From Aggregatilinea lenta (GTDB lineage: Bacteria > Chloroflexota > Anaerolineae > Aggregatilineales > Aggregatilineaceae), in assembly GCF_003569045.1 (NCBI RefSeq), contig NZ_BFCB01000004.1:300281-364280 (forward strand): a DNA stretch of 64,000 nucleotides, given 5' to 3'. The first letter of the stretch is position 1. Each line of letters begins with the position of its first letter. Of this stretch, positions 20,759 through 25,729 are shown in pieces. A program made the translations under genes and the position numbers. The notes beneath the pieces are model-generated. The model made no database searches, was not told where the DNA came from, and saw nothing but the letters and a program-made list of their open reading frames with translations.

Positions 20759-21943
20759 TTAGTAGTTCAACAACTCCGCCGTGTCGCCAAAGGCCGAGGC
20801 CGGGTCGTTCGGGGTGGAACCGCCGCCCGATGCTGGGCCTTCCTTCCGCCATGCGGCGATTTCGACCGTCAGCCGCTCGAAGAAACTGCTCGGCGGTAGC
20901 GCGCCCTGCCCGTACTGAGTGTCCACGATGCGGATCTGCACGCGCAGCGTCTGCGTCTCCAGCGTGGTGATCGTGCCCGGCTCGACCAGCACCGCTTCAC
21001 CCTTCGGCGCGAGCTTGGTACGCAGCGCCTGGTCGTTGTAGGCGTGCTGGGTCATGAGTACTTTGGTCACCGTGCGGATGTCGTTCTTGTCGAACAGCCA
21101 CACCTCGGTCGCGGTCACCTTCTTCGGCTCGCCAACGCCGATAGTCTCCGAGATGCCCGATCCGCATTCGCCAAGGAACTCGCCGCTCTCAGTTTCGACA
21201 CTGAACGAGTCGTCGTACAGATCGTCGCCCAGTACGTAAGTCGAGACGTGCTGTACCAGCGGCGCGATTTCACCTGCAGCGGCGAAGTCCGTTTTCTGCT
21301 CGGCAGCGGCGCGCTTCACGGCGATGCGCTCCGAGTTCGATGCGACGGCGCCGGTAGATTCAGTGGTCGCGGGAGCCGGGGCAGCACCGGGCTTACGCGC
21401 CGGACGTCCCGGCTGCGGCTTGGCCCACTTGCCCACCGGCACGGCCCAGTAAAAGGTCATAGCGAAGGCCAGGATCAGCCCGATCAAGGCGACGCCTCCC
21501 AAACACAGCAGCGGGCTGAGCAGATTCCCCAACGTGCTGTGCTCGATCACCTTTGCCTGCTCGGCAGCGGCGTCGGCGTTCGCATTCGCCACCTGTAGCA
21601 GTGTGCCAAGCTGCCCGGCCAGTTGTGCGTCGGCCTGGTTTTCCTGTATGAGTTCCTCAATCATGTCCGGCGTCACACCTGCCGAGACGATCTTGCGTGC
21701 GGCCTCTTCCGTGTCGCCGGTATCGGCCAGCTCAACCGCCGTCATCTTGATCCACTGGTCCTTGTACCCGTCGGCCAGATGCACCGGTTCGGCATCGTAA
21801 AACTTGATCGGCGCGCCCTGGTAAGCCCACAGCAAGCCGATGATCACGCCGAGCAGCACGAGTCCCAGCCGCCAAAGCGACGGCGCGAGTGAACTCAGTA
21901 CAGGTTTAGCCATGATCTTGAACTGTGGTACGAGGCGTCCCAT
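20759..21943 (-). CDS. Uncharacterised membrane protein with two transmembrane helices
   Basis: 394 residues, not recognised. One helix lies near residues 23-41 (LWRLGLVLLGVIIGLLWAY) and a second near 147-170 (LLCLGGVALIGLILAFAMTFYWAV). The stretch between them (about 45-145) is acidic and helical, rich in Ala, Gln and Glu, and probably extracytoplasmic. After the second helix there is a Pro/Ala-rich linker with KPQPGRPARKPG, then a C-terminal soluble domain of about 170 residues with a likely beta structure (VSTYVLGDDLYDDSFSVE, GECGSGISETIGVGEPKKVTATEVWLFDK). The start at 21943 has AGAAAGG upstream; an ATG ten codons in has no ribosome site. The topology would place the C-terminal domain inside the cell. 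Function unknown. Confidence 0.75.
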   Translation of the reverse strand: MGRLVPQFKIMAKPVLSSLAPSLWRLGLVLLGVIIGLLWAYQGAPIKFYDAEPVHLADGYKDQWIKMTAVELADTGDTEEAARKIVSAGVTPDMIEELIQENQADAQLAGQLGTLLQVANANADAAAEQAKVIEHSTLGNLLSPLLCLGGVALIGLILAFAMTFYWAVPVGKWAKPQPGRPARKPGAAPAPATTESTGAVASNSERIAVKRAAAEQKTDFAAAGEIAPLVQHVSTYVLGDDLYDDSFSVETESGEFLGECGSGISETIGVGEPKKVTATEVWLFDKNDIRTVTKVLMTQHAYNDQALRTKLAPKGEAVLVEPGTITTLETQTLRVQIRIVDTQYGQGALPPSSFFERLTVEIAAWRKEGPASGGGSTPNDPASAFGDTAELLNY

Positions 21944-22161: not shown

Positions 22162-23379
22162 CTATCCCTTGACCGACCCGGCCAGCAGTCCGCGCACGAA
22201 GAAACGCTGGAAGCCCAGGAACACGATGACCGGCACGGCCATGCTGATGAAGGCCGCCGCCGTCATACGATGCCAGCCGCCGCCCAGCGAGTCAACCAAC
22301 TGGCTCAACTGGTAGGTCAGCACCGGAGCCTTGTTCCCCAGGAAGATCAGGGCCACCAGCAGGTCGTTCCAGACCCACAGGAACTGGAAGATGCCCAGCG
22401 CCGCGATGGCAGGCAGCGCCAGCGGCATCACGATCTTGCGGAACACCTGGAAGTGCCCTGCCCCATCGAGATATGCCGACTCGAACAGGTCGCGCGGCAG
22501 TGATGCGACGAAGTTACGCATCAGGTAGATGGCATAGGGCAGCCCGAAGCCAGTGTGGAACAACCAGACCCCCAGGAACGAGCCGTTCAGGTGCAGTTGC
22601 GTGTACAGCCGGAAGATCGGCACGAGCGTCATTTGAAGCGGGATGATCTGCAGTCCGACCAGGATCGTGAACAGCACTTTACGCCCGCTGAAGTCGAGCC
22701 AGGCGAACGCGTACGACGCGAACCCGGCGAACAGGATCGGCAGCAGCGTCGCGGGGATGCTCACGGCGAAGCTGTTCAGCATACCCCGGAAGATTGCGCC
22801 CTGGCGGGTGGCGTCCTTCCAGAAGTCGCAGCTTCGTGTCCCGGTCGAGCCTTCCGTCTCGCAAGCCTCTTCGTAGGTGCCGCCGCGCGCGTCGTAACCA
22901 ACCAATACGTCTTCATAGTTATTGAGTGTGAAGCGCGACGTCCCCGACCCGGCCTGCGCTTGCAAGTAGGCCAGAATGTCGGAGGATGCCTGCGTGGGGT
23001 CGTCCGGCTGCATTTCTTCCGGTACGTGCGGATCACCGCTTTCGAGTGTGCCACGCGCGATGAGCAGCTGCACGCGCTGCGCGTTACCCCGGAACTCACT
23101 CGTGATCGTGTCCGGATCGCTCAGGTCGACGCCTTCGACGCCTTTCAGATCGGCACCGTGGCACTCCCCACAAGTCTGCTCGTACGTAGCTGGATCGGCG
23201 GTGTCGCTCGTGAGCGCGGTCCACCACCCCGACTTCGTCACGACTTCCTGCGGGCGGAACGAGGTCACGAACAGACCTAACGTGGGGATCAGCCAGATCA
23301 TGCACAGCAAAAAGACGGCCAGGTTCACCGGGATGCGGTTCAGGATTGCCACGATGCGATCGCGTGTTTCAGTACTCAT
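22162..23379 (-). CDS. MalG-like sugar ABC permease with an inserted cytochrome-c-like domain
   Basis: 405 residues, about 120 more than a usual MalG-type permease. After the first TM helix (about 17-40) and the family motif TSFRPQEVVTKSGWW comes an insert (about 58-147) before the permease resumes at FTLNNYEDVL (150-159). The insert contains a CxxCH haem motif, CGECH (C70, C73, H74), and an EEMQP Met (M123) placed like the distal ligand of class I cytochrome c, ending in a helix DILAYLQAQAG. In MalG this loop is extracytoplasmic, where c-type haem is attached. The rest is a normal inner-membrane subunit with the EAA loop (FESAYLDGAGHFQVFRKIVMPLALP). Its ATG overlaps the upstream permease stop (ATGA) and has GGAGGAG upstream. 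Third gene of the operon; no ATPase is encoded nearby. Confidence 0.93.
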   Translation of the reverse strand: MSTETRDRIVAILNRIPVNLAVFLLCMIWLIPTLGLFVTSFRPQEVVTKSGWWTALTSDTADPATYEQTCGECHGADLKGVEGVDLSDPDTITSEFRGNAQRVQLLIARGTLESGDPHVPEEMQPDDPTQASSDILAYLQAQAGSGTSRFTLNNYEDVLVGYDARGGTYEEACETEGSTGTRSCDFWKDATRQGAIFRGMLNSFAVSIPATLLPILFAGFASYAFAWLDFSGRKVLFTILVGLQIIPLQMTLVPIFRLYTQLHLNGSFLGVWLFHTGFGLPYAIYLMRNFVASLPRDLFESAYLDGAGHFQVFRKIVMPLALPAIAALGIFQFLWVWNDLLVALIFLGNKAPVLTYQLSQLVDSLGGGWHRMTAAAFISMAVPVIVFLGFQRFFVRGLLAGSVKG

Positions 23380-24293
23380 CGCGCTGCCTCCTCCGCATTG
23401 AACCGGCGAACGTTGAGGATCATGACAGGAACAATCAGCAAGATCAGGATCACGGCGTAGGCCGCCGCCAGGCCATCGTTATTGTACAGGTACAGCTCCG
23501 ACACCATTCGCGTCGCGATAACGTCCGTGTCGATCCCCTTCAAGACCCAGACGATGTCGAATATCTTCAGGGTGTTGATGGTCATGGTCGTCAGTACGAC
23601 TGCAATGGTCGGTAGAAGGTGCGGCAGCATGATGCGGAAGAACACCTGGAGTTCGTTCGCGCCGTCCACACGTGCCGCTTCGAGGATTTCTTCAGGGATG
23701 GATCGTAGCGCTGCGGCCAGAATCGTCATCGTGAAGCCGGTCCACACCCAGATACCGACTACGATCAGCAGGAACGTATTGCCGGGCGGTGACGTCGCCA
23801 GCCACGCCTTTGCGTCGCCGCCGAACAGCTTCAGGATGGCATTCAACAAACCAATATTCGCATTTGGGTCGTAAACGAAGCGCCAGATAATGCTCGCGCC
23901 GACAAACGAGATTGCCATAGGTAAGAAGATGATCGATTTGGCGACCGATCCGTACGCCACACGATCGGTGAGCACGGCCAGCAGCAGGCCCAGGACAACG
24001 GTGCCGGGCACCATGATAATCAGCCACAGCGCCGTGTTACGAAGGGCGATCTGGCCCGAGTCACTGGTAAACGCGCGTCGGTAGTTCTCAAACACGCCTG
24101 CACAGGGTGCGTCTTCGGCATTCGAGCAGTCACTGGACGCCCAGCCGCTGTCAGAATCGTTTCGAAAGCTCAAATAAGTGGTGCGCAGGGTCGGATATAC
24201 GACAAAAATAAGCATAATGATCAGCGCCGGGCCGACGTACAGCCAAGGCACTGTTCGCCCCTGGCGCATGATCATGGGCGTTGTGCTGCTCAT
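23376..24293 (-). CDS. MalF-like sugar ABC transporter permease
   Basis: 305 residues from the ATG at 24293, with AAGGAG about 9 bases upstream; the 11-residue extension to 24326 is unsupported. Six TM helices are predicted by eye (first at VPWLYVGPALIIMLIFVVYPTL). The cytoplasmic EAA loop reads EEILEAARVDGANELQVFFRIMLPHL, which docks on the ATPase. The loop after TM1 is somewhat long and has two Cys (SSDCSNAEDAPCAG), perhaps a disulfide outside the membrane. It pairs with the MalG-like subunit to form the importer channel. Second gene in the operon, coupled to the third by a 4-base overlap, about 115 bases after the binding-protein gene. Confidence 0.95.
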   Translation of the reverse strand: MSSTTPMIMRQGRTVPWLYVGPALIIMLIFVVYPTLRTTYLSFRNDSDSGWASSDCSNAEDAPCAGVFENYRRAFTSDSGQIALRNTALWLIIMVPGTVVLGLLLAVLTDRVAYGSVAKSIIFLPMAISFVGASIIWRFVYDPNANIGLLNAILKLFGGDAKAWLATSPPGNTFLLIVVGIWVWTGFTMTILAAALRSIPEEILEAARVDGANELQVFFRIMLPHLLPTIAVVLTTMTINTLKIFDIVWVLKGIDTDVIATRMVSELYLYNNDGLAAAYAVILILLIVPVMILNVRRFNAEEAAR

Positions 24294-24328
24294 CAGATCT
24301 CTCCTTGGCTCCCCCAATAAACGCAAGA

Positions 24329-24409: not shown

Positions 24410-25729
24410 CTACCCTGCTGCCTCAGTCGCCGCCATGTCGGCACCCATCGAGGCTTCATCGATCGCCTGCTGGATGGCACCCAGTTGCTCGGCGACATCC
24501 GCGCCACCAACCGCAGCCGTCAGGGCATCGAACTCAGCTTGGCCTGCGCCACCCGGCAGCAGGTCGCCCACGTCGAACACGACTTCTGGCGAATCCAACA
24601 GGGCCTGGGCCTTGCCTGCCGAGATCGGGTTCTCGTAAGCCGAGATATCGACGGCTGAGTTCGGGGTCAGGTCAAAGCCGCTGGCTGCCCACGCCGACGC
24701 GCCTTGCGCGCTGGTCAGGTAGTTCATCACAGCCTGCACTGCTGGAGTGTTGTTGAACACGGCGATGAAGTCCGCGCCCACCTGCATCGGAGCCGGTTCA
24801 CCACCGGGGCCGGGCAGCACGAAGAACGCGAAGTCCTCACCATACTGGAAGTCTGGGAACGCGGGCTGAATGGTGGCGCTACCGGCAAAACCGGACTGCT
24901 TCACCATCCACGCCTGGGGCGGATCCTGGAACGGCTGAAGAATGGCATCGTTGAAATTGGTCGTCCGCGTCCCGTCAGAGCCACCTGCGCCGTATGTGTT
25001 CACCCAGTCCACGTACATGGTCCAGGCATCGACCATGCCCTGGTCGGTCCAGTTCGTGGCGCCCGTCGCCAGGCCGCGAACGTAGTCCGCGCTCTGGAGG
25101 CGCAGCAGCAGGTCCTGCACGAAGTCCGTTCCGGCCCAACCCGTTGCGCCGCCGCTCTCGAAGCCCATTGCCAGCGCCGGGGTATCGGTCGCAGCCATCG
25201 TATCGAGCAGCGCCGTAAAGTCTTCCCAGGTCGTGGGCACTTCGTAGCCTTCAAGCTCAAAGGACAGCGGGCTATACCACACCAGCGACTTGATGTCGGT
25301 CTTGATCGGCAGGCCGTACCACGTGCCGCCCACCGACCCCAGATCCTGCCAGCTCTGATCGTAGTTGTCAGCATTGACGTTCACTTCGGACAGCGGCACA
25401 AGGTTTTCTGCATACTGCTGAAGCGCGCCCACGTTCGGCATCGAGGCGATGTCCGGCGGCTCGCCGCCTTCAACGCGCGTCGAAAGCACGGTTTGCAGGT
25501 CGCGTGTCCCTTCGTGGTTAAGGGTCAGATCGCATGCTTCAAGGACAGGTGATAGCACCTGCTTGAAAGTTTCTTCTTCTTCACCGGCCCAAACACTGAT
25601 GACCGACACGTCCGATCCTTCGCTGCCGAAGCACTCGATGTCGCCCTGCGCACGAGTCACACCGACGGGACCAACGACAGCTGTCGCCAGGGCCAGCAGT
25701 AAGACCAAAACTAGAGAACGCTTTAGCAT
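24410..25729 (-). CDS. Sugar ABC transporter substrate-binding protein
   Basis: 439 residues, family 1 extracellular solute-binding protein. An N-terminal Sec signal (KRSLVLVLLLALATAVVGPVGV, cleavage likely after TRA) has no lipobox Cys at the end, although a Cys follows shortly after. The mature part has VISVWAGEEEETF, the motif EGGEPPDIASMPN and GTWYGLPIKTDIKSLVWYSP, as in alpha-glucoside or other oligosaccharide binders. Near the C-terminus the Ala-rich tail QQAIDEASMGADMAATEAAG resembles those of related binding proteins. The start ATG has AGGAGG at ideal spacing. First gene of the three-gene importer operon. The sugar bound cannot be told from sequence. Confidence 0.93.
   Translation of the reverse strand: MLKRSLVLVLLLALATAVVGPVGVTRAQGDIECFGSEGSDVSVISVWAGEEEETFKQVLSPVLEACDLTLNHEGTRDLQTVLSTRVEGGEPPDIASMPNVGALQQYAENLVPLSEVNVNADNYDQSWQDLGSVGGTWYGLPIKTDIKSLVWYSPLSFELEGYEVPTTWEDFTALLDTMAATDTPALAMGFESGGATGWAGTDFVQDLLLRLQSADYVRGLATGATNWTDQGMVDAWTMYVDWVNTYGAGGSDGTRTTNFNDAILQPFQDPPQAWMVKQSGFAGSATIQPAFPDFQYGEDFAFFVLPGPGGEPAPMQVGADFIAVFNNTPAVQAVMNYLTSAQGASAWAASGFDLTPNSAVDISAYENPISAGKAQALLDSPEVVFDVGDLLPGGAGQAEFDALTAAVGGADVAEQLGAIQQAIDEASMGADMAATEAAG

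Follow-up and report, generated by a model that had tools for sequence, protein, structure and literature searches.

The maltose importer MalFGK2 of E. coli is a type I importer, as is the system described here. In one of its permease subunits, an additional extracytoplasmic region termed MalF-P2 (residues 91-271) contacts the binding protein MalE, according to a simulation study (PMC3150292). That region sits in the other permease subunit than the cytochrome-c insert reported below. To our knowledge, MalF-P2 holds no haem; MalE reportedly interacts with both P2 of MalF and P1 of MalG, as the title of Daus et al. 2007 has it. The closest solved sequence relative of our permease core is 8ja7_B, a chain of 274 aa that we take to be SugB of the mycobacterial trehalose importer LpqY-SugABC. 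SugB shares trehalose or maltose chemistry with the operon neighbours of the permease's relatives, and its match leaves the insert uncovered. For the insert itself, the best profile and structure matches are the CcoP domains of cbb3 oxidase and cytochrome c6, which combine CxxCH with a class I fold and use Met as the sixth ligand.

A sugar permease with a cytochrome-c insert

The window, i.e., the whole stretch of 64,000 nucleotides that was analyzed, encodes on its minus strand a sugar ABC importer permease of the MalG/SugB type with an inserted cytochrome-c domain (22162..23379, 405 aa, ATG start). PF00528 covers residues 226-397 of this protein (Pfam, E 5.5e-16, 59.3 bits against a cut-off of 26.4), and its best PDB sequence match, to SugB 8ja7_B, covers residues 186-405 (E 4.2e-28). 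TM1 lies at about residues 18-40 (23260..23328, minus), where a hydrophobic run in the sequence coincides with a helix in a low-confidence full-length model. The cytochrome-c domain occupies about residues 56-147 (22939..23214, minus), as indicated by a PF00034 match on the insert and by the fold of a homologous domain. A preliminary description had proposed a MalG-type permease with an insertion, rather than a frameshift, after TM1. This proposal holds: the domain lies in frame within the first outer loop, both flanks are permease sequence, and the reading frame is unbroken, so that the cytochrome-c insert in a sugar permease is confirmed as a real observation. The CGECH haem-attachment motif was likewise found as described at C70-H74 (23158..23172, minus).

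Residues 300-319 (22423..22482, minus), within the PF00528 match, presumably represent the EAA motif, and the EAA coupling loop of such permeases is cytoplasmic. Counting helices from this loop, the TM1-TM2 loop with the insert is predicted to be extracytoplasmic, which upholds the location suggested earlier. C-terminal of the domain, the same outer loop contains a two-cysteine hairpin (22810..22899, minus), recognized by Cys conservation: C173 is present in 41/41 and C184 in 40/41 domain-bearing sequences, and the corresponding position also holds two Cys in four domain-less relatives. The two residues may be joined by a disulfide.

Directly upstream, on the same strand and in an order shared with relatives, are the genes for a partner permease of the MalF/UgpA type (23376..24326, minus; PF00528, 1.7e-15) and a sugar-binding protein of the same operon (24410..25729, minus). 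NCBIfam matches of the partner permease to GlcT and UgpA are both below their cut-offs; the binding protein has a weak Pfam match below cut-off, and its PDB matches are sugar-binding proteins (best 7eho_A, 7.3e-12). ABC_tran was not found in the permease (Pfam, E up to 1), whose only families were PF00528, two cytochrome families and DUF6168; the ATPase subunit of type I sugar importers is often encoded elsewhere. The permease is also adjoined by a gene for a 394-aa protein (20759-21943, minus) that has hydrophobic stretches and matches no Pfam family at E 0.01.

The operon context was compared across 15 neighbourhoods (the window, 13 domain-bearing loci and the domain-less L085) using a simple ORF caller that missed some ORFs. 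A relative of the binding protein was present in 14 of them, a LacI-like protein in 13 and a GH13 protein in eight. The single LacI-like protein tested is LacI and the single GH13 protein tested by Pfam matches PF00128, while all three GH13 proteins tested by NCBIfam score above the treS_nterm cut-off of 678 bits (808-822 bits). In addition, a GH65 enzyme is encoded at L074 and a GH63-like enzyme at L075. Near the permease operon in the window, the caller returned neither a LacI nor a GH13 relative. Judging from the operon neighbours of its relatives, the permease is likely to transport trehalose or another alpha-glucoside. Among the operon genes tested, no redox enzyme was seen, and the same simple caller returned no other ORF with CxxCH in the 14 domain-bearing neighbourhoods.

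Fold and candidate haem ligands of the domain

PF00034 scored 18.2 bits on the whole protein, under its cut-off of 21.3, and 22.5 bits, over the cut-off, on the insert alone. Among 17 domains of the family, PF13442 matched 16 and PF00034 matched 11 (E 0.01); the window's own domain is divergent, with 23-35% identity to the other 16. An AlphaFold2 full-length model of the window's permease was poor (pLDDT 56.6) and was set aside, and the fold was therefore examined on the Pelolinea homologue (L080), whose domain was modelled in isolation (pLDDT 88.5, pTM 0.79), with that domain and 16 relatives, the window's included, as input. The best Foldseek match of this model is the cytochrome kustc0562 (7o38; E 9.3e-3, probability 1.00); at E up to 10 there are 133 matches, all of them weaker than E 0.001. 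VIA-align gave Z values of 5.5-6.8 over the best 50 listed, and 104 of 244 chains had Z of at least 5 and none reached 8; the absence of other fold families from this list carries no meaning. By title, the listed structural neighbours are either cytochromes of the c type or enzymes and complexes that include a cytochrome-c part, with the exception of 7y5e_G2 among the Foldseek neighbours, whose title gives no such indication; they include an engineered M58H cytochrome c6. The class I cytochrome-c layout that had been read from the sequence is thus borne out by the PF00034 match on the insert and by a homologue's domain that folds like c-type cytochromes; the fold check, made on that homologue, favours a cytochrome.

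The domain recurs in 41 distinct sequences, which is more than chance would give. Since these 41 rows were chosen for CxxCH, the motif is present in 41/41 by construction, and the fair counts are those from the searches given below (26/26 in the class and 16/16 loci). H118 (23026..23028, minus) is kept in all 41, and the residue after it is M in 15, L in 11, V in eight, I in six and T in one. The preliminary description had assigned the ligand role to M123 (23011..23013, minus) in an EEMQP context. This Met does occur in the window's protein, which is the only one of the 41 to have it (1/41), so it is neither a family feature nor acceptable as an axial ligand; moreover, no column across residues 50-200 holds Met at 85% or more. 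H118 is consequently the better candidate and, from its invariance, likely the sixth haem ligand. In the profile match to CcoP 3mk7_C, GqiH stands opposite GQMP, with the His one residue past the Met; aligned with eight cytochrome domains from the window's genome, the conserved His falls about two columns past the ligand Met. These offsets place H118 in the ligand loop, with some uncertainty as to the exact column. As the distal Met is absent and the His invariant, the domain appears to be a variant rather than a canonical His/Met class I cytochrome c.

Distribution, maturation genes and evolution

A profile of TM1 plus the insert was run against 396 genomes of the same Chloroflexota class and gave 26 full-length matches under 14 family labels, the window's own included, all 26 with CxxCH. 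In a set of 61 genomes (the window's own and 60 relatives), with up to 30 candidates scored in each genome and the insert called from match ranges, at least five carried the insert-bearing permease (the window's genome, G006, G032, G056 and G011). A contig scan of named genomes, which relied on two short peptide patterns by which relatives can be missed, returned at least 20 loci. The domain is present in 16 of them, with CxxCH in 16/16; five of these repeat sequences already found and 11 are new. The titles of the contig-scan loci are Chloroflexota or its members, including one Anaerolineaceae chromosome, and domain-bearing isolates are Pelolinea submarina MO-CFX1 and Thermanaerothrix daxensis. 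A phylum draw of 400 genomes (out-of-class share unstated) yielded 11 matches (E 1e-20), of which 10 are full-length, and all 11 came from the window's genome or the same class. Viral contigs gave no match. In the survey of homologues for CxxCH suggested in the preliminary description, the motif is present in every domain-bearing relative found, none of them having the domain without it; the domain as a whole is missing from four close homologues, which belong to two lineages.

Cytochrome maturation genes are present in nearly all genomes that have the domain: of 33 such genomes, 32 have PF01578 and 31 have CcmE. G113 (73% complete) has neither, and G072 has no CcmE match and a strong ResB. 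The window's genome has PF01578 twice and CcmE once, in agreement with what a cytochrome reading had called for, together with 14 PF13442 matches besides the permease; the class survey found no ResB in it (117/396 class genomes have ResB). CcmE is common in the class: 330/396 genomes have it, 24 of the 26 domain-bearing ones among them. Maturation genes thus separate the two groups poorly and are permissive only. These counts weaken the idea that Ccm genes are retained only to serve the permease, as do the Ccm genes of three small genomes without a full domain permease (G363 and G434, where the permease is domain-less, and G376, with a partial match only), the protein with five CxxCH motifs beside the Ccm genes of G363 and the multihaem match in Pelolinea submarina (both given below). 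Two further genomes with a domain-less permease differ: G417 has PF01578 and ResB and no CcmE match, and in G432 both PF01578 and CcmE were unmatched.

Pelolinea submarina is a strict fermenter according to a table in PMC5481317. Its permease is the sole match in the genome to PF13442 (28.7 bits) and to PF00034 (19.0 bits, below cut-off), and PF02335 was unmatched. A multihaem match, PF09699, was found, so the permease is probably not the only c-type cytochrome of this organism. Its Ccm cluster lies at G438:C1:1013718-1019963 (L101), and no CxxCH was present among the ORFs called within 20 kb around it.

Several other proteins were seen near maturation genes. A 375-aa protein with five CxxCH motifs adjoins the Ccm genes of G363 (L102:6237-7361), the permease of which is domain-less. 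In the window's genome (C2), a 666-aa protein with a cytochrome-c domain (L104:4829-6826) is located near a CcmF-type match and has a weak SdrD_B match, below cut-off. Two CcmC-type matches, G439:C2:417652-418230 and G099:C12:28875-29450, have one in-frame TGA each, which may mean a pseudogene, a mistake in the sequence or reading, or an artefact of the frame.

For the permease core, a maximum-likelihood tree was built from 71 rows. The domain is present in 40 of them, which represent 41 sequences, as two share the same core. The domain label requires three changes on this tree, against a shuffled mean of 23.4; the starred branches alone force one change, and bootstrap trees give 2-3. All 40 rows with the domain fall in a single clade of 44 (100/98), which also includes four domain-less rows in two places. 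This pattern fits one gain and two losses of the domain, and the two losses indicate that it is dispensable. In each of 12 pairs, identity of the domain (0.30-0.91) is lower than that of the permease core (0.84-1.00). The dN/dS of the domain, a rough measure here since several dS values are above 1, is 0.06-0.28 and exceeds that of the core in each of the 10 of 12 pairs that could be computed, which points to a domain that is constrained, less so than the core. One permease, L013 (G011), has two cytochrome domains in tandem at about residues 55-245 of a 531-aa frame, and neither copy has lost CxxCH or the PH[IV]P histidine.

This permease clade repeatedly takes up inserts in its first outer loop. 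Sister permeases carry other inserts in the same loop, of about 80 aa (L015, L016, L021, L023, L026) or about 90-110 aa (L022, L024, L025, L028), and some sister rows outside the domain clade have no insert there. In L014 (G054; 609-aa frame) the loop has about 300 extra residues that look beta-rich and repetitive by eye. L017 (G021) has a Cys-rich hairpin at this position and no cytochrome domain, and may show the state preceding domain gain.

Possible roles and comparison with known systems

We infer that the permease carries a genuine c-haem domain of class I type outside the cell. Its insertion would have been a single event in the common ancestor of one permease clade, within one Chloroflexota class, and most descendants would have retained it. 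Haem would be attached at C70 and C73, with H74 as the proximal and, most likely, H118 as the distal ligand, i.e., with His/His ligation. Since the corresponding loop of MalG reportedly contacts the binding protein, a change in the haem's redox state or ligands is proposed to alter docking of the binding protein or gating, by which the uptake of trehalose or another alpha-glucoside would be tuned to the extracytoplasmic redox state. Such tuning is a possibility that we favour tentatively. The stronger form, an importer gated by a covalent c-haem that reports the extracytoplasmic redox state, so that carbon uptake follows electron-acceptor supply, is slightly more doubtful; if true, c-haem gating would hold even in the strict fermenter P. 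submarina, where the permease is the only class I match. Evolutionary distances within 12 operons, a small and related sample, bear on the docking partner. After correction for the core, domain distances correlate with those of the binding protein (partial r 0.46, permutation p 0.0018), and the hairpin correlates with the binding protein more strongly than the domain does (partial r 0.74, p 0.0008). The MalF partner also correlates with the binding protein (partial r 0.36, p 0.017), and no clear correlation was found between domain and MalF (0.23, p 0.09).

The main rival to redox- or ligand-dependent docking or gating is a static haem whose sole part is to keep a small fold intact, on which the binding protein docks as it would on the haem-less domains in the same loop of relatives. 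The other inserts of sister permeases (about 80, 90-110 and 300 aa) suit this account, as does a domain surface that drifts fast while the ligands stay. On the other hand, a haem-dependent fold would be costly for docking alone, and H118 is invariant alongside CxxCH; we regard a static haem as somewhat unlikely. Alternatively, the domain could be an electron-transfer station between an extracytoplasmic carrier and a partner, with the importer as its membrane anchor. Here, the lack of a redox enzyme among the operon genes tested and the P. submarina permease, a sole PF13442/PF00034 match despite the multihaem match, tell against a role to which the class I fold, the tandem domains of L013 as a short wire and a wealth of cytochromes would otherwise be suited (at least five PF13442 matches in 13 of 15 domain-bearing genomes, the permease included where matching, besides the 14 in the window's genome). 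This reading is unlikely.

Even less probable is a sensor of gases or small ligands (e.g. NO, CO or sulfide), in which a labile His or an open sixth site would gate uptake: no Met stands at one fixed place and the residue after H118 varies, but the invariant H118 favours a firm ligand and no sensor partner was seen. Finally, the preliminary description had allowed for a non-functional domain. The divergence of the window's own copy and the losses in two other lineages could be read as decay, or as an insert that was never loaded with haem; however, H118 and CxxCH are invariant in 41 sequences, domain dN/dS is well under 1, and PF01578 accompanies nearly all domain-bearing genomes. Because C, C, H and H are invariant in a fast-drifting domain and are kept in a tandem duplicate, we consider an insert without function very improbable.

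In the literature that could be searched, most subscription papers lying beyond it, we found no description of a sugar permease with a cytochrome-c insert, and we know of no earlier sugar ABC importer with a built-in c-type cytochrome. The nearest haem-linked ABC transporter found is CydDC of E. coli, which, according to PMC4132815, co-purifies with haem b and has an ATPase activity that responds to hemin. It thus differs from the c-type domain reported here in its haem, and it is not a sugar importer. CydDC is named a haem transporter in paper titles, and it consists of a permease fused to its own ATPase; the window's permease, which has no ABC_tran match, is not a fusion of this type. The domain hints at a possible link between sugar uptake and redox conditions outside the cell, and its occurrence in two isolates makes this directly testable. 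Compared with CcoP and cytochrome c6, the cytochrome-c domain of this permease has an invariant His and is located inside a transporter loop, joining nutrient uptake and extracytoplasmic redox chemistry in a single polypeptide.
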